Shown piece after piece: positions 2,939-64,000 of a stretch of DNA of 64,000 nucleotides. Numbering within the stretch: position 1 is the stretch's first letter; each line of letters opens with the position of its first letter. This DNA comes from Spirochaeta cellobiosiphila DSM 17781 (lineage in GTDB: Bacteria; Spirochaetota; Spirochaetia; DSM-17781), in contig NZ_AUFW01000019.1 in the NCBI RefSeq assembly GCF_000426705.1, forward strand, positions 62,001 to 126,000, given 5' to 3'. The notes below the pieces were generated by a model. It was not told where the DNA came from and made no database searches. It was given only the letters and a program-made list of their open reading frames with translations. Made by a program: the position numbers and the translations under genes.

Positions 2939-3082
2939 TCATTTCAAACCCTTTACCACTTTTTCCTTAAATGGGATGCCTTTTTTAATAAAAAAACCAC
3001 ATATCACTTATAATGTTGAACATATAGCTTCATCGATATATGTTTTCCTTGCCCGGCTAATAAGTAAATCATAATCTTTTTA

Positions 3083-3499
3083 TCAACTTACAGTTTTCAC
3101 TCTACCAAGGAGATCACAGAGAGTTTCTACTTCTCTCTTAGAGAGAGCCGCGAATAATTTATCCTCAATGGCAAAAACAATACCATCTGCTTCTTTTAAT
3201 AAAGCTAATCCTCTAGGAGTAAGTTCAATTTTTTGTATTCGTCCGTGAGTCTCCGAATCAAACCATTTTATGAGTCCATTTTCTTCGAGCTTGTTTACAA
3301 TCAAAATTATAGTTTGAGGGGATACGAAACATTTTCTGGCAACTTCAGCATTTGATATACCAGGGAAATTCATCAATAACACTTAAACTAGAATATTGAG
3401 ACGTTGTTAAGCCAATCGTTTTTAGCTCCCTATCCATATGATTTCTTATTTCCTGTTGCACTACTTTTAGTAAATATCCAGCATGGTGACAACAATTAA
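3083..3499 (-). pseudogene. MarR-family regulator, frameshifted
   Basis: The intact 3' part (3083-3382) encodes the winged helix of a MarR repressor: ISNAEVARKCFVSPQTI, then NKLEENGLI and TPRGLALL. The N-terminal helix (QQEIRNHMDRELKTIGLTTS) lies upstream in another frame. The frames join at a CCC run (3363-3365); removing one C restores DEFPGISNAE. No start codon is seen upstream of the first part. Either a true pseudogene or a sequencing slip. It diverges from a broken VOC gene, a common pairing of a regulator and its target. Confidence 0.6.
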
Positions 3500-3673: not shown

Positions 3674-3880
3674 GTTATATTGAATTACTAAATCTTATAG
3701 AGTCTGTATTACCTCTTAGAGATACCGTCCCTCTAGCCTAATCTGTAACATTCAAAGTCATGCTAGATTTCAAGTGTTTTATCAGAGCTATAGGAATACA
3801 ACATAATAGTTCCTACCATAGCGGAAACCAGATAATTTCAAATCAATGATGTTATTAAACTTCCCTTCTATCTTACCCAC

Positions 3881-4162
3881 TCACCAAATCCTAGAATAAA
3901 TAAGTAAATCGACAAAACCTTTATTTCCCCAATATTCTGGTAATAGGTCATATCCGAGACAAGCACGCTTATGATATGAGTTTATTAGGTACAATCCACA
4001 GGTTCCTATAATCGTACCCGATTTGGATATAGTAAAACGCACTTGTTTCTTTTCCTGATAGAAATTTAACCAACGCTGGATATGCTTTTCAGCTTGGCTA
4101 ATCTCAGTGAAGGGTTCGAGGTCATAATATTTACAAACCTGTTCTGATTCTATTATATTCAT
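3881..4162 (-). pseudogene. GNAT acetyltransferase, truncated
   Basis: The 93-residue product starts like a RimJ/RimL-type N-acetyltransferase: the segment GTIIGTCGLYLI precedes the central strands and GYDLLPEYWGNKG is the family's conserved turn before the acetyl-CoA loop. It then ends, at about half the usual 170-180 residues, so the acetyl-CoA-binding half is missing. Likely inactive; last member of the cluster of decayed genes at 2.5-4.2 kb. Confidence 0.55.
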
Positions 4163-4610
4163 TTTCCTATTATAGGCATAATGTTAATATTCTTTCATCT
4201 TATTTATATTGACCGATTTCCTCTTAAATGTAAGGAATGCTTTCTGTTATTAAAAAGGAAATCGGTATAGCAATAGATTATTTATTGAAAACATAAACAC
4301 TAACTTTTTCTCGTCATTGCCCCAAGTTCGTCCCCCTATGGCCCTGTCATCTTATGATGTAGTAACAGAACAACCTTTCGTCAGTTTCTAATTATAGATC
4401 TAACATATTACTAAAGAGGAATAAGAACAATTTAACTGCATATGTTGGAGGTGATTTGCTTTATGAAGTTTAATTTTGACGAGATCAATCAGTATACAGC
4501 ATTTACTGGTACTAACAATATTTATCATATGGATAATAGTTGCAAAAAACCCACCTTTTTAATAAGGCGGGTCTCTTTATGGCATTAGATAGATATAAGT
4601 GTTGGTTGGT
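4163..4610. other. Intergenic region, 10-bp inverted repeat
   Basis: No convincing gene. A perfect 10-bp inverted repeat (ACCGATTTCC at 4212-4221, GGAAATCGGT at 4257-4266) encloses 35 bases. A 41-codon open frame (4463-4588, +) with weak coding character runs into the terminator of the next gene and is probably fortuitous. Confidence 0.4.
4548..4582 (-). terminator. Rho-independent terminator of the enoyl-CoA reductase gene
   Basis: On the minus strand ACCCGCC, a loop, then GGTGGGT followed by six T. One A.C mismatch in a 7-bp stem. It lies about 30 bases past the stop codon of the leftward reductase gene. Confidence 0.75.
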
Positions 4611-52721: not shown

Positions 52722-52957
52722 TCCTCTGTCCAGGTTTCTGGATAAGGCGTAAAGAAGTAAAGAAATACAAGACTGAGGCGTTTTTTGAAGCCTTAGAGAT
52801 ATACCAAAGGTTTAACCTTCTTGGTGTATTGCCAAATGGGAAGGGAACGAACCAAGAAAGACCAATTGTCATTCAAATATTGATGGCATTTGAGTCAGAA
52901 AAGCGAAAGCTTGAATCTTGGGAGTTGAAAAGATCAAGGGAAGGAAATGGCATCTAA
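52266..52957 (+). CDS. Tail assembly chaperone fusion by -1 frameshift (gpGT-like)
   Basis: After a -1 slip at 52649-52655, translation continues from 52655 to the TAA at 52955-52957, adding 100 residues (GFCLAYLGWFKEDWREEF, VLCPGFWIRRKEVKKY, LMAFESEKRKLESWELKR). The fusion is 230 residues. The shifted frame is open for 300 bases up to the tape measure gene and has clear coding character although it lacks a start of its own. Confidence 0.8.
52649..52655 (+). promoter_or_regulatory. Programmed -1 ribosomal frameshift site
   Basis: Heptamer A AAA AAG in the correct phase. A GC-rich stem CTCGCC (52664-52669) / GGCGAG (52695-52700) starts 8 nt downstream, and a GAGGAAG internal SD-like sequence lies about 12 nt upstream; both are known stimulators. 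Confidence 0.8.
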
Positions 52958-55900
52958 AATAGAACTAGAGATTATTGCACAATCCAAAAAAGCTATTGAA
53001 GATATGAAAAAGTTCGGAAATGAACTGAGCTATACAGAAGATGTTATGCAAAAGTTCAAGAACTCCGCCAAAGAATCAGATCTCAGAGGCTTCGAAACTC
53101 GTCTTCTAAGATCAGCCACAGCGGCTAATTATATGGGAGGGCAAATGTCCTCCTTGAGAACCACAAACAATATGTTATCCGGCCAAATCAAAAGGATGAT
53201 CAAAAGTGGTATTGATCCTAACGATAAAGCCATTAAGAAACTATCAATCACCTATAAAAAGAATGAAGCTCAAATTAAAAAACTTATTATCCAAGACAAA
53301 GCCTTAGCTGTTGCTAAAAAAGCCGGACAAGGAGCAGCATTGGGAACAGTGGCCGCGTTAACAGCAGTCACTGTTGCTGGGATGAAAGGCGCCGCTGAGT
53401 TTGAAAGATATAGAAAAGAGTTTGGCGTTCTCTTTAAGGATATGGCTAAAGGGGCTAGTTACTTTGAAAAGCTCCAAAAGTTCAGCGCTAACACACCTTT
53501 ACAGATGGATGGATTATCCAACACAACAAAGACCCTACGAAGCTATGGAACAGAAATAAAGGACCTAATACCTCAAATCCAAATGTTAGGTGATACGGCT
53601 CTAGGAAACCAGGAAAAATTAGATTCCTTAGCCAGAGGTTTTGGAAAGATCCAAACAAAGGGAAAAGCATCAATGGAAGAATTGAATATTATCATTGATG
53701 CAGGGATTCCTATACTTGATGAATTATCAAAACAGCTAAATGTCTCAAAGAGTGATCTTCTGAAAATGGTTACCCAAGGCAAAGTCTCCTTTGATAATGT
53801 AAATCAGGCCTTTAAAAGTATGACTTCTGAAGGTGGACAATTCCATAATGGAATGAAAGAACTCTCCACTACCCTTTCAGGTAAACTCTCCACAGCTATG
53901 GACAATGTTAAGATTGCAGGAGCTACCACTTTTGAACCAGCTATTGAAGGAGCAGGTGAAGCTCTCGATGCCTTAACAGAATTATCCAAGAATTATGTAG
54001 CCTTTTTAAAACAGATAAGAGGAGAACGAAGTTTTGACTTTTCAGAGTTAGATGAAGCCAAGAAGAAAGTACTTCAAAATGCCACTTCCTATGAAGACCT
54101 AGGTTATATGAATGGTATGAGTAAGGGCATCTATGAAGCCGCGAAAGCCACAGAGAATTGGGCCGAAGCTCTTAAAAAAGCTGATGAAGCTTACTCACTT
54201 GAAAATCAAATTAGACAACTCAAAAAACTCGACGAAACAAGAACAGAAAGCGCAAAGATTTCGATACAATCCGCATTAAATGACTTAAACAGTGGCATTG
54301 GTGAGGGTGATTGGTGGGATACTTTTGACACAGTCGAAGAACAATTTGAATCGGCGGTTGATAGCATAACCAATGATATGGGCCAGTTGCTAGAAGGTCT
54401 TGGAGGAAAGGATTTAAGAATAGCCATTGCCTCAGGTGATGTGGAAGTACTCAAGAAAGCCCTCGAGAATCTTGAGTTAATTAATCCAGATCTCAAAGAA
54501 ATGCAGGACCGACTTAACCAATTACAATCAGGAAAAGGAATAATCACCCCAGAAAAACAAGAAGATCCTTATGAAGGGAAAACATGGCGTGACTGGTCTG
54601 AAGATATCCTCGGATTTGGACAAGGAACAGGGGCGGCTAATGCGGAATCATTCATTGAAACAATTAATACAGGATTAGAAACCCAATCAGCTATAGCTCA
54701 ATCATTAGGTGAAGAGTTTGATCTAGTTGGGGCTAAGCAAGAAAAAATAAAAGCCGTTATCCAAAAACTCCTAACTATTCCTAAAGATCAAATAGACCAG
54801 GCTTTCCGAATAGATGACAACACAATACAAAGATTGGTAGAAGCCTATAACTTGCTTGAATCTGCTAATGAAAGCTCTATGTTAGACCAGATGTATAAAG
54901 ATGCATCTGAACAATTAGATAAAATATCTATCCAGGAAGAGACTCTAGCCACAGCAAGAAAAAAGCTCATTGAACTAGAGACAACTGGCCACAATTTATC
55001 AAACCAGGCTTTAGATGAAGAAATAAAGAAGTATGAAATTATAGTATCTCAACTAGAAGATGCTTTAGATATAAAGTCAAAGATGTCAGACTCTGACAAG
55101 TCAATGACAGATTACGCAAAAAACTCAGCAGAAAGTGGGGAGCTTGGAGAAGTTGGGCAGCTAGCAACTGGGGCTGATCCTATTACATTGATAGTACAAG
55201 CCCTTGTAGATTTTGCAACTTCCATTGAAGGTGTCAATGAAGTACTTAACCCATTTGCCACTATTTTTGAAGGAATGCGCTCCCTCATTGGTCCTGAATT
55301 AGAAGAAGCTCTTCGACCTGTAGTCTACTTGCTACATAGCGCAGGAAATAACATTGCCAAGCTTTTAGTACCTCCTATTAGAGCGGCTGGTTTTGCAATC
55401 AAGGTGCTAGTTTCAGCGATAGAAATAATACAAACACCAACTAAGTTCCTTGCTGATATATTCATGTGGGCTGGAAATAACATAGTAGCGACTATTGAGT
55501 ATATAACAAGTTTTGGGACTCGAAGTAATTTTACCAAATTTAACTCAAATGCCTTTTCTGGATTAGATGATAGGCTTGATTACATATGGAATGGAGCCTC
55601 GGAAAAAGAAAAAGAAAGAGCAGAAAAATCACTTGAACTAATTGAAGATCAAATAGATACGGAAAAGGAAAAACGACAAGAATTACTATCTGCTATAGAT
55701 GAGTGGTATGACAATGAAATCTATCTTCTTCGTAGAGAATTAGACAATAATTTGATATCCCAAACAGATTATACAAACACCCTCAAAGATTTACAGGAAG
55801 AAGAAGAAAAAAGGACAGATGCTGTTGAAGCCGCTAGCGACTTACAACTGGAACAATTAGAATCTCAAAAAGAACTAATTCAATCTAATATTGAGCTAAT

Positions 55901-56330
55901 AGAATCTCAAGCCATGTTAGCTGCTTCCTTAAATAATGTAGAATTTAAAAAAGCCGATGGACCTTTGGATGCGGCTCTCAGTCCAATTAAAGCAGTAACT
56001 GACACTGTTGGTTCAGTGGTAAAGTCTGTTAAAAAGTTCTTTGGATTCGATGTAGGGACTTCAAATGTCCCTAAGGATATGTTTGCCATGGTTCACCAAG
56101 GAGAAGGAATTATCCCCAAAACCTTCAATGAAGGGATAAAAAGTGGTGATTACACTCTAGTAGGTAAAAAGCAAAATCTTTATGGACTAGATCAAGAAAG
56201 CCAACAGCTTGGGGGTAACCAACAAAATATAACCATTAACTTAAATGGTTCTATTGTAGGAATTGAAGACCTCTATTCAAAGATAAAAGCCATTGAGAAT
56301 AATCTAAATCGAAAAAGGATTGCAGGATGA
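52947..56330 (+). CDS. Tail tape measure protein
   Basis: 1127 residues, setting tail length. N-terminal coiled coil, then the tape measure domain (FSANTPLQMDGLSNTTKTL, LARGFGKIQTKGKASMEELN, TTLSGKLSTAMDNVKIAG). Hydrophobic segments near 725-800 and 830-860 and a C-terminal GTSNVPKDMFAMVHQGEGII motif (the DNVPALLxPGE-type cleavage/assembly segment). AAGGGAAGGAA precedes the ATG. Overlaps the next gene by four bases. Confidence 0.93.
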   Translation: MASKIELEIIAQSKKAIEDMKKFGNELSYTEDVMQKFKNSAKESDLRGFETRLLRSATAANYMGGQMSSLRTTNNMLSGQIKRMIKSGIDPNDKAIKKLSITYKKNEAQIKKLIIQDKALAVAKKAGQGAALGTVAALTAVTVAGMKGAAEFERYRKEFGVLFKDMAKGASYFEKLQKFSANTPLQMDGLSNTTKTLRSYGTEIKDLIPQIQMLGDTALGNQEKLDSLARGFGKIQTKGKASMEELNIIIDAGIPILDELSKQLNVSKSDLLKMVTQGKVSFDNVNQAFKSMTSEGGQFHNGMKELSTTLSGKLSTAMDNVKIAGATTFEPAIEGAGEALDALTELSKNYVAFLKQIRGERSFDFSELDEAKKKVLQNATSYEDLGYMNGMSKGIYEAAKATENWAEALKKADEAYSLENQIRQLKKLDETRTESAKISIQSALNDLNSGIGEGDWWDTFDTVEEQFESAVDSITNDMGQLLEGLGGKDLRIAIASGDVEVLKKALENLELINPDLKEMQDRLNQLQSGKGIITPEKQEDPYEGKTWRDWSEDILGFGQGTGAANAESFIETINTGLETQSAIAQSLGEEFDLVGAKQEKIKAVIQKLLTIPKDQIDQAFRIDDNTIQRLVEAYNLLESANESSMLDQMYKDASEQLDKISIQEETLATARKKLIELETTGHNLSNQALDEEIKKYEIIVSQLEDALDIKSKMSDSDKSMTDYAKNSAESGELGEVGQLATGADPITLIVQALVDFATSIEGVNEVLNPFATIFEGMRSLIGPELEEALRPVVYLLHSAGNNIAKLLVPPIRAAGFAIKVLVSAIEIIQTPTKFLADIFMWAGNNIVATIEYITSFGTRSNFTKFNSNAFSGLDDRLDYIWNGASEKEKERAEKSLELIEDQIDTEKEKRQELLSAIDEWYDNEIYLLRRELDNNLISQTDYTNTLKDLQEEEEKRTDAVEAASDLQLEQLESQKELIQSNIELIESQAMLAASLNNVEFKKADGPLDAALSPIKAVTDTVGSVVKSVKKFFGFDVGTSNVPKDMFAMVHQGEGIIPKTFNEGIKSGDYTLVGKKQNLYGLDQESQQLGGNQQNITINLNGSIVGIEDLYSKIKAIENNLNRKRIAG

Positions 56331-60374: not shown

Positions 60375-60674
60375 ATGGGAGATGAAGACAGAGAACAAGA
60401 CAAACAAATAGGTAAACTCTGGGCAGAAGTCAAAAGACTATGGGATTTTCTTCATGGTCCTAATGGTGATAACGGGCTTAGAAGTAGGATAGTTAAACTA
60501 GAGGATCAATCAATAAATTTTGCAACAAAAAAGGATGTTCTCTCAGTGAAACAGGAAGTCCTTACTGCAATTAAAGAATCAAAAAGAACAGGTCAAGAAA
60601 GATTTAAGAACTGGGTTTATTTCTTGGCAGTAGTATCAACAATAATATTTGGGTTATGGGACAAGCTATTTTAG
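60375..60674 (+). CDS. XhlA-like membrane-associated protein
   Basis: 99 residues. Long amphipathic/coiled N-terminal part (QIGKLWAEVKRLWDFLHG, VLSVKQEVLTAIKESK) and one C-terminal membrane helix (WVYFLAVVSTIIFGLW), the layout of XhlA/holin-accessory proteins. Located directly before the peptidase gene. Confidence 0.6.
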   Translation: MGDEDREQDKQIGKLWAEVKRLWDFLHGPNGDNGLRSRIVKLEDQSINFATKKDVLSVKQEVLTAIKESKRTGQERFKNWVYFLAVVSTIIFGLWDKLF

Positions 60675-60686
60675 GAGGGATTTATT

Positions 60687-61169
60687 TTGAGGATGACTAT
60701 AAGATTTTGTCACATGGATTCCCCTTCTCTGCTACAGGAAGGGGAAATAATTAGTTATGGAACAAAGATTGGTAGAATGGGAAACACTGGAAGTTCTAAA
60801 GGTGCTCATGTTCATACTGACATTGTCCAAGGATACAAAAAAGATGTTTATCATTTGAAAGACATAATGAATAACATTACAGATCTTGAATCTGTTTGCC
60901 GCCAATTCTACTATTTTCTTCAAGACGATTTCTTTAATACACCGCTTTTTGTTACGTCACATTTTGGAACCATTGATTATGGTAAATATAGAAATGGAAA
61001 AGTTAGTGAATGGAAGTTTCATCCTGCTTATGACATTGTTCCAGAGAACCGCCATTTAACCAAGGCTAACTTTGATTTCTATTGGAATAGATCAGTAAAT
61101 GGCGTATGCCTTAAATCTGGTTTTGATAGAGATTATGGTAATTATGTGAATATAGGTTTCGAGGTATAA
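60687..61169 (+). CDS. M23 peptidase in circularly permuted order (endolysin)
   Basis: 160 residues. TTG start at 60687, six nt after AGGAGGGA. Residues 1-45 match the C-terminal half of a LytM/M23 domain (RFCHMDS, GTKIGRMGNTGSSKGAHVH, with HxH at 41-43). Residues 90-160 match the N-terminal half (TSHFG, HPAYD with His112 and Asp116, YGNYVNIG). All zinc ligands are present but in reversed order, and the end of the protein would continue directly into its start. Expected to cut peptidoglycan cross-bridges; activity unproven. Confidence 0.65.
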   Translation: MRMTIRFCHMDSPSLLQEGEIISYGTKIGRMGNTGSSKGAHVHTDIVQGYKKDVYHLKDIMNNITDLESVCRQFYYFLQDDFFNTPLFVTSHFGTIDYGKYRNGKVSEWKFHPAYDIVPENRHLTKANFDFYWNRSVNGVCLKSGFDRDYGNYVNIGFEV

Positions 61170-61171
61170 GT

Positions 61172-61657
61172 ATGGGATTTGATATAGCTAGCTTTCTTGG
61201 TGTAGGAAAAACAATAAAGGATGGAGCTGAGGGAATAGGCTCAGCTACAGAGCAAATCATATATGCGGGAAAGGGAAAACTCCCTCCTGAAGAACAAGTT
61301 AAGATAGAACAAATTAAGTCTCAGGCTGAAGGACAGATGTGGGAAACTATTTCAAAGATGTCCAATTCGTTTCAAAACTTTACATTGAAATATGAAGGGG
61401 AGGCAAAAGACCTACCTAGGCCTATTCTGCTTGCCAGGTCTTTAGTTAGGCCATTATTCACTTATCTTGTACTTGGTCAGGTGGGTATTATCTTTGGATT
61501 GGACTTCTGGAGATATATGAAAGGAACAGGTGCTTTCGAGTTAGTCAAAGGAATGCCTTCTGAATGGTGGGTAATGGTTTGGATTGTGATTGGTTTCTAT
61601 TTTGGAGAAAGAGCTGTTACTAATGCCTTATCAAACTCTGTTACTAGTAAAAAATAA
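61172..61657 (+). CDS. Three-helix phage holin-type protein
   Basis: 161 residues. Soluble N-terminal half with amphipathic helix, then hydrophobic segments PLFTYLVLGQVGIIFGLDFW and WWVMVWIVIGFYFGERAV, resembling the 3TM holin family (gene-transfer release type). Two bases after the endolysin. Likely permeabilises the inner membrane or stabilises the lysis complex. Confidence 0.65.
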   Translation: MGFDIASFLGVGKTIKDGAEGIGSATEQIIYAGKGKLPPEEQVKIEQIKSQAEGQMWETISKMSNSFQNFTLKYEGEAKDLPRPILLARSLVRPLFTYLVLGQVGIIFGLDFWRYMKGTGAFELVKGMPSEWWVMVWIVIGFYFGERAVTNALSNSVTSKK

Positions 61658-61661
61658 CTCG

Positions 61662-61679
61662 AGTGCAAGCGCTTGCACT
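61662..61679. repeat. Perfect 18-bp palindrome
   Basis: AGTGCAAGCGCTTGCACT, 5 bases after the holin stop. Shares the core CAAGCGCTTG with a second palindrome 76 bp away. Confidence 0.85.
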
Positions 61680-61737
61680 TCACTACACAATTAATACAAT
61701 ATGTGTACTAATAACGCATTAAATACACAATGTATTT

Positions 61738-61761
61738 TCGTGTCCAAGCGCTTGGACACGA
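61738..61761. repeat. Perfect 24-bp palindrome
   Basis: Centre GTCCAAGCGCTTGGAC, arms 12 bp. GC-rich within AT-rich DNA, between the convergent holin and DUF3102-like genes. The core resembles LacI-family operators; a bidirectional transcription-stop hairpin is the alternative. Confidence 0.85.
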
Positions 61762-61836: not shown

Positions 61837-62418
61837 TTATTTGCCTTCTCGATGCATTTTCAATGCTCTTTCAATAACCTTTTTTTCACCTTCATCTTGT
61901 ATTTCAATAATATAGACATCATTTCCAGAACTGATGATCTTATCTAATCTATCTCTTGAAATTAAAACAGAATCACCTATCTTAACTTCTTCATTAGTGA
62001 AATCAATCTTTCGATCTGTATCATAAATAGACTTAGTCGATTTTGGTTTATCGATCTTATTACTATCTTTAGTTTTTAGGAGTGCTAAAAAGCTTTTTAG
62101 ATTAAGTTCAAGACTTGGATTGTATTGATCCTTATTAAGATAAGCTAAAATATAACGTTGAGCCTGTCGTACTCCAAAAGGTAAATTATCATTTACCCAT
62201 GGAGTAAATTCTCCATGTGGCAACACTTTCTTTTGATCAAAAATGATCTCACCTATTCGGAAAATATTCGACATTGAATCTTGGGCTGCTTTTGTGAATC
62301 TTTCTTCAATTTCATTATATAAATTGATGATTTCATCTTCTGGAGAGTCATACTTTCTGGATTCTTCTGTATAGGCTGAAGGATCCCATTTATTTCTGAT
62401 TATTTTACTATCTTTCAC
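61837..62418 (-). CDS. DUF3102-like protein
   Basis: 193 residues. FRIGEIIFDQKKVLPHGEFT followed by PWVNDNLPFGVRQAQRYI matches the DUF3102 pattern (IGxxLxxAKxxLxHGxFxxWxxxxxxxSxRTAQxYM). The C-terminal half (KIGDSVLISRDRLDKIIS) may be a small beta domain. Transcribed away from attR; a lysogeny-expressed moron is possible. Confidence 0.6.
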   Translation of the reverse strand: MKDSKIIRNKWDPSAYTEESRKYDSPEDEIINLYNEIEERFTKAAQDSMSNIFRIGEIIFDQKKVLPHGEFTPWVNDNLPFGVRQAQRYILAYLNKDQYNPSLELNLKSFLALLKTKDSNKIDKPKSTKSIYDTDRKIDFTNEEVKIGDSVLISRDRLDKIISSGNDVYIIEIQDEGEKKVIERALKMHREGK

Positions 62419-62496: not shown

Positions 62497-62595
62497 TTCA
62501 CTAAACATAAAAAAACCCTTAAACCGTTGTCAAGCAAAGGTTTAAGGGTCATTACGCCCTGCACGATTCGAACGTGCGACCTACGGCTTAGAAGG
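62497..62595. repeat. attR: 99-bp prophage direct repeat
   Basis: Identical to 20833-20931. Here it continues into the 5' part of the intact tRNA-Arg, so the phage supplies the functional 3' end and terminator. Confidence 0.93.
62507..62548 (-). terminator. Terminator of the tRNA transcript
   Basis: CCCTTAAACC (62516-62525) / GGTTTAAGGG (62539-62548), 10-bp stem; on the minus strand it follows the tRNA by 4 bases and ends in seven T. Confidence 0.85.
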
Positions 62596-62626
62596 CCGTT
62601 GCTCTATCCAACTGAGCTAAGAGCGC
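62553..62626 (-). tRNA. tRNA-Arg(TCT)
   Basis: Complete cloverleaf: acceptor GCGCTCT / AGGGCGT (G1-U72 and a U-G pair), anticodon stem ACGGC / GCCGT, loop CTTCTAA giving anticodon TCT, T arm GCACG-TTCGAAT-CGTGC. CCA not encoded. It is the prophage insertion site. Confidence 0.95.
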
Positions 62627-62633
62627 ATAAATA

Positions 62634-62768: not shown

Positions 62769-64000
62769 CTAAGTTTTTTTACCCTTCTTTTTGATCATTT
62801 TATTAGCCTCTTCCCTCTCCTTAGTGAGTTGTAAAATGGTCTGTTCAAAATCAGGATAACGCTGCAGAACTTGGGTAAAGACATCCTTCGGCAGTCGGTA
62901 AAGATCACAATACTCCAGGGCTTTAATGGTAGCTGTACGGGGGACACTTAGAAGAAGAGCCATCTCTCCAAAAAATTGTCCTTGAGTTAAAGTGGCATAA
63001 ACCATTTGCTCATTCGGTGACAGGACCTGTACGGACCCCTTACTGATAAAGAACATATCTGCCCCTAATTCACCTGCCTTTACAATATAGTCATCAGGGG
63101 AATAGACGACTGGTAGTAGGTTAACAATAATGTCACGGATGAACTCTTTACTGGCTTCCTTGAAGAGAGGGACTTTTTTAATGATATCCATATTAAGATA
63201 GAGGCTGACCTCCATTTTAAGAGGTTCCGGCAGATCATTGAGGACCTGAGTCTCCTCATATCCTCTTCGCGTTTCCCATAAGTACTGGTAATAGTCATTG
63301 ATCTTTCGCTGAACCTTATGAGGAATACGTCTGTATTTTAAAAAGGTGTTAACCCTTTCAAGCCTCTCTTTAAATTGGTTTTTAGCCACATCGATATTAA
63401 CAATAAGGTTGGCAATATTACCAATGAGAAGACCATACATAGCAGCACCTAAGATTTCAATGATAATAACAAACAGAACCTGACCTCTCGTCTGGGGAGT
63501 GATATCACCATATCCAATAGTGGTAATAGTCGTTATGGTCCAATAGAAGGCATAAAGATACTTATCCCCTTCATTATTACCGGCCACATTAGGATTGATA
63601 GCTAACCAGGCACAACTAATGAAGTGAGCCACCATCAAGAACCAAAAGAGTAGTACAATCATTCGTAAGATAGCAGGGTTCATCCGTTGACTGACTTCTC
63701 CCTGAATGGTTTTGATCACCCGAATCAGTTTGAGAACTCTAACCACACGTAAAACTTTAATGATTCGTCCCAATTGGAAGAGAGGAAGGCCTTTTAATAT
63801 TAATCCAAAGGGAATGAAAGCAAGTATATCAATAAGAAACCAATGCCTCAGGTAGTGATTAACGATGAGCTTTCGATCCTTAACCAATTTACCTTCTACC
63901 TGGAAGGAAAGGTTCAAATTATAAAGGATATCCAGACCAAAGATGATCGTGACAATGCTATCAGCTATCATCGTTATTATGGGGTTCAAGTTCGGGAAGA
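62769..64000 (-). CDS. Voltage/cyclic-nucleotide-gated potassium channel (partial)
   Basis: The frame is open to the window end, so the N-terminus (S1 and perhaps more) is missing. Visible: charged S4 (RIIKVLRVVRVLKLIRVIK), pore helix and selectivity filter TTIGYGD, S6 (VIIEILGAAMYGLLIGNIA), C-linker, and a cyclic-nucleotide-binding domain with FFGEMALLLSVPRTATIKA (phosphate-binding cassette). Together these indicate an eag/HCN/MloK-like K+ channel of the inner membrane. Confidence 0.9.
   Translation of the reverse strand, partial: FPNLNPIITMIADSIVTIIFGLDILYNLNLSFQVEGKLVKDRKLIVNHYLRHWFLIDILAFIPFGLILKGLPLFQLGRIIKVLRVVRVLKLIRVIKTIQGEVSQRMNPAILRMIVLLFWFLMVAHFISCAWLAINPNVAGNNEGDKYLYAFYWTITTITTIGYGDITPQTRGQVLFVIIIEILGAAMYGLLIGNIANLIVNIDVAKNQFKERLERVNTFLKYRRIPHKVQRKINDYYQYLWETRRGYEETQVLNDLPEPLKMEVSLYLNMDIIKKVPLFKEASKEFIRDIIVNLLPVVYSPDDYIVKAGELGADMFFISKGSVQVLSPNEQMVYATLTQGQFFGEMALLLSVPRTATIKALEYCDLYRLPKDVFTQVLQRYPDFEQTILQLTKEREEANKMIKKKGKKT

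Follow-up and report, generated by a model that had tools for sequence, protein, structure and literature searches.

A rare, phage-borne M23 peptidase of apparently permuted domain order in a prophage of Spirochaeta cellobiosiphila

Background

SCOP places the fold of the M23 peptidases under the duplicated hybrid motif (b.84.3), and the family (PF01551) includes LytM, lysostaphin and MepM/ShyA. Small phage M23 proteins also occur in Thermus and Meiothermus phages (Lalka27b XKB89895.1, MMP7 AZF88268.1). Circularly permuted enzymes are described for another cell-wall-related peptidase superfamily, NlpC/P60, in YaeF/poxvirus G6R and the LRAT-like families (Anantharaman and Aravind 2003, as cited in PMC6403190). 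Those enzymes resemble the protein studied here in that catalytic residues are swapped in sequence, but they have a cysteine peptidase fold that is unrelated to M23. Among the papers listed in full-text searches of an open-access collection, we found no report of a permuted M23 domain.

The window analyzed here is the whole 64,000-nucleotide stretch of the S. cellobiosiphila DSM 17781 genome, and the protein encoded from its position 60687 (the 60687 protein) is similar to the M23 family in its motifs and ligands (HxxxD, YxH, GxxIGxxGNTGxSxGxHxH), in its strand blocks and in scoring above the gathering threshold. It differs from LytM, lysostaphin and MepM/ShyA in that its halves are reversed, its termini lie in the mid-domain hairpin and the old termini are fused by a linker. 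In our assessment the gene probably encodes an M23 zinc endopeptidase of the LytM type that has been circularly permuted in nature and would serve as a prophage endolysin.

Sequence layout and profile tests

The motifs of the 60687 protein follow the order YxH, HxH, HxxxD, YGN, against the canonical HxxxD, YGNYV, YxH, HxH (Table 1). The first-half motifs are located toward the C-terminus, with TSxFG at residues 90-94, HPAYD at 112-116, then GVxLxSG, and YGNYVNI at 150-156. The chain ends a few residues past YGNYVxI and begins with the TxYxH strand, which canonically comes next. The original prediction had the protein beginning at the M23 strand that follows the middle of the domain and ending before that point, with HxH (41-43) ahead of HxxxD (112-116) in reversal of LytM; both statements are borne out, the cut falling between YGNYVxI and TxYxH and the motifs being HVH and HPAYD at those residues. 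All zinc ligands had also been said to be present, and HxxxD (H112/D116), HxH (H41/H43) and the catalytic YxH (H9) are indeed all retained, these five zinc and catalytic residues being invariant in the three permuted members described below. From family knowledge we take His41 to be catalytic and His43 to bind zinc.

The ribosome site that had been noted was likewise found, with a spacing of 7 nt to the TTG start, and the alternative ATG lies only two codons inside the TTG. A TAG stop (60672-60674) stands in frame four codons 5' of the start, and this stop, the unrelated upstream ORF and the finding of no M23 half upstream rule out a frameshift or a missed upstream N-terminal half. A scan for hydrophobic 19-mers revealed no transmembrane or strongly hydrophobic N-terminal segment in the 60687 protein, and all three permuted members score below the threshold.

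Table 1. Features of the predicted permuted M23 gene and of its prophage neighbors, in window coordinates
Feature	Position	Strand	Basis or remark
Shine-Dalgarno AGGAGGG, TTG 7 nt downstream	60673..60679	+	Sequence; overlap with the stop codon of the preceding ORF
Predicted circularly permuted M23 endopeptidase gene, 160 aa	60687..61169	+	TTG start; alternative ATG 60693; ORF, Pfam, rejoining and rotation tests
N-terminal block, residues 3-50, corresponding to the canonical M23 second half (TxYxH strand to HxH)	60693..60836	+	
His9 in YxH motif (RFCHM here)	60711..60713	+	Invariant across the three permuted members
HVH, residues 41-43	60807..60815	+	Sequence; invariant; His41 catalytic and His43 zinc ligand by LytM analogy
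Linker, residues 51-86, bridging the canonical C- and N-termini	60837..60944	+	Helix 67-79 in the predicted model
C-terminal block, residues 87-160, corresponding to the canonical M23 first half (TSxFG, HxxxD, GxV, YGNYVxI)	60945..61166	+	
HPAYD, residues 112-116; His112 and Asp116 zinc ligands by analogy	61020..61034	+	Sequence; H and D invariant
Tape measure protein, same prophage	52947..56330	+	
99-aa protein, coiled coil and one C-terminal TM segment	60375..60674	+	XhlA-like architecture; no family match
161-aa protein	61172..61657	+	Weak GTA_holin_3TM-like match, E 0.097; otherwise orphan

Pfam PF01551 matches the native protein at residues 5-48, corresponding to profile positions 47-89 only (E 6.1e-8, 33.2 bits, above the gathering cut-off of 28.7 bits), and the first-half block on its own falls below Pfam detection. 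When the two halves are exchanged the match becomes continuous (profile 21-89, 40.4 bits). With the profile used for the chance test, built from 18 canonical M23 domains of class relatives, the rejoined protein gives a single unbroken match of 48.6 bits and the native protein gives 31.2 + 7.6 bits in reversed order; shuffling the C-terminal half 2000 times never yielded 48.6 bits, the highest shuffled score being 41.0. A rotation scan with a profile of 109 canonical M23 sequences gave 75.2 bits for the best rotation versus 52.1 for the native order (0 of 1000 shuffles reach 75.2), and the optimum is flat-topped for cuts at residues 68-84, which lie within the linker. Rotation optima fall within or adjoining the linker in all three permuted members (0/1000 shuffles for each). 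In tblastn against 50,697 phages, the native protein yielded just two matches, both to the N-terminal half (E<=0.01), and the rejoined protein yielded M23-type matches in 67 records (E<=1), a contrast that is indicative only, as the two limits differ. The rejoined query finds canonical phage M23s, the best of which cover 72-89% of its length. These rejoining tests with their controls, together with two further phage contigs, support a circular permutation of the M23 domain at the level of sequence.

Permuted relatives and structure prediction

A search for homologues with the same motif order had been suggested, and two IMG/VR contigs share the order, the cut point and the ligands. IMGVR_UViG_3300009788_000219 (L183) carries at 2995-3474 a 159-aa ORF of the same permuted order, with 38% identity over residues 2-160 (E 1e-27) and a C-terminal GFEV common to both proteins, and the two sequences clearly form one family. 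IMGVR_UViG_3300012041_000011 (L099) carries at 2085-2579 a 164-aa permuted ORF that is cut at the same hairpin, and within this single ORF PF01551 matches at profile positions 42-91 and then 3-30. BLAST between this protein and the 60687 protein aligns the N-terminal half only; once rejoined, it aligns over 130 aa with a relative of canonical order (L204) at 37% identity. The L099 protein may go back to a common permutation event, or its permutation may have arisen separately at that hinge. The Lalka27b and MMP7 proteins have in common with this member the sequence around an HPGxD entry and a YxDPxxF exit but, unlike the permuted members, they are in canonical order. Among the three permuted members (159-164 aa, alignment identity 36-41%) the landmarks lie at closely similar positions, YxH at 9-10, HxH at 41-42, HPxxD at 101-112 and Y/WGN at 149-150, and the cut is always between the YGNYVxI and TxYxH strands.

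The permutation had been described as rare in the family, in keeping with which the fetched loci contain three distinct permuted loci only, while the about 300 other M23 ORFs in them are canonical. Homologues with two separate truncated domains, named beforehand as the refuting case, were looked for and not found, and none of the about 300 ORFs is a tandem M23-M23 relative with matching spacing. In a search of 393 genomes from the phylum, a permuted profile covered both halves in the 60687 gene only (118.6 bits, positions 2-116), at a cut-off of 1e-12 that could miss relatives as distant as the IMGVR_UViG_3300009788_000219 protein (about 43 bits with that profile); the remaining listed matches are confined to one half, and any longer ones proved to have the canonical order when read. 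A search with a closer profile at a cut-off of 1e-9 likewise brought up no second host genome with the permuted gene. Two other phyla gave no match in 362 and 378 genomes at E 1e-14, in sets that held no positive control. Candidate permuted matches in genomes G436, G186, G102 and G000:C27 were canonical on reading.

Separately, we observed that the M23 profile matches four loci (L233, L234, L240 and L242) in two pieces (23-91 and 86-117) about 20 residues apart, as if the second half carried an insertion ahead of HxH.

AlphaFold2 with the three permuted sequences alone gave a weak model (pLDDT 57). With a 43-row alignment, which includes canonical M23 half-fragments and so leans towards an M23 fold, the model is moderately confident (pLDDT 75.6, pTM 0.71) and places strands at the positions predicted from M23, with most core blocks at about 80-93 pLDDT and the linker at 55-71. 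Foldseek searches of PDB and BFVD with either model matched no M23 structure and returned only noise. The aligner follows chain order and is expected to be hampered by a permutation, although even then one half might have matched, which counts against the permuted reading. The null result fits a permutation without proving it.

Alternative explanations and proposed mechanism

It is scarcely credible that the gene is an artefact of sequencing or assembly, or that the motifs occur by chance in a small phage protein of another kind. A single host genome carries the permuted M23 in the collections searched, as an artefact might, but the layout is repeated in two independent metagenome contigs and chance is excluded by the shuffle controls. 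The same gene could be the now non-functional remnant of a two-domain M23-M23 protein whose first domain was cut at the front and whose second was cut at the back. Permutations usually arise through tandem duplication and trimming, and by sequence alone such a remnant looks identical; it is nonetheless improbable, because three deeply diverged copies have retained length, cut point, start position and ligands, which decay would not preserve, and no tandem relative of such spacing was recovered among the about 300 ORFs. The copies in independent contigs and the shuffle controls thus make assembly error, chance and two decayed domains unlikely, and the permuted M23 of the prophage is, as far as sequence can tell, a real, rare and phage-borne variant.

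A permuted M23 fold need not be an endolysin, and the protein might instead be a virion-associated or regulatory peptidase or a non-catalytic activator. Tape measure and tail proteins also contain M23 domains, and catalytically dead LytM factors are known in EnvC and NlpD. We regard this as unlikely, given that the zinc and catalytic residues are complete, that the 60687 protein is a stand-alone protein encoded downstream of the tape-measure and tail genes among small transmembrane proteins, and that its counterpart in IMGVR_UViG_3300009788_000219 precedes a transmembrane protein and a pair of overlapping ORFs that weakly match Rz-spanin. These overlapping frames (3712-4116 and 3719-4201) both have an N-terminal transmembrane segment and resemble a nested spanin pair (weak phrog_214). 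A cytosolic phage endolysin is the most likely identity of the 60687 protein, with peptidase activity and the exact lysis role being inferred. There is also a small chance that the permutation is functional and not neutral, the protein, with its termini in mid-domain, becoming active only on exchange of halves between two chains or on rearrangement of the linker, with one event having spread among unrelated phages; if so, phages would gain a self-timed endolysin.

Under the preferred reading, a natural permutant acting as an endolysin, the chain would start with the second half of the M23 fold and finish after the first, with the old C- and N-termini joined by a linker of ~36 residues. The halves would fold together into one ordinary M23 site, with His112, Asp116 and His43 as ligands and His41 and His9 as catalytic residues, and this site would cut peptide bonds or cross-links of peptidoglycan. 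Because it has no signal peptide or transmembrane segment, the predicted endolysin would remain in the cytoplasm until a holin opens the membrane. The gene probably goes back to a tandemly duplicated M23 gene that was later trimmed at either end, as is standard for circular permutants.

We take the cut in the permuted M23s to fall at the boundary between the two duplicated-hybrid-motif halves, and for this reason they suggest that the halves of the fold are exchangeable in nature. The hinge position is a possible place for re-terminating lysins. The permuted M23s also point to a blind spot in annotation, as a linear profile detects half a domain and would mark such genes as truncated.

Prophage setting

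The IMG/VR-predicted provirus is 39,317 bp long and ends at window position 62418 (coordinates obtained by arithmetic), just before tRNA-Arg and tRNA-Pro genes. Its genes include an integrase, terminase, portal, protease, decoration, major head and tape measure, and the prophage record has one PF01551 match; no second lysin was recognized among the prophage ORFs scanned. The original prediction had placed the M23 gene in a lysis cassette. The location downstream of the tail genes, flanked by a coiled-coil protein with one TM segment and a weakly GTA-holin-like protein, agrees with this claim, but neither neighbor has a firm holin or other family match, and the claim is supported only in part. 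Relatives of these neighbors were sought for a comparison of gene slots, and none was found. A lysis context is plausible for the gene, its neighbors being orphans, with the 161-aa protein a possible holin and the 99-aa protein a possible lysis accessory protein.

Just 3' of the 161-aa gene, at 61660-61760, we observed two palindromes with a common core, GTGCAAGCGCTTGCAC and TGTCCAAGCGCTTGGACA, which are possible operator or terminator sites. A convergent gene of the phrog_6146/DUF3102 type (61837-62418, minus strand) occupies the predicted provirus end and adjoins the tRNA-Arg gene (62552-62627), and an attachment site possibly lies near. Farther on, at 62769-63989 on the minus strand, the host encodes a cyclic-nucleotide-gated channel whose nearest solved structure is SthK of Spirochaeta thermophila (3e-119), a model channel.
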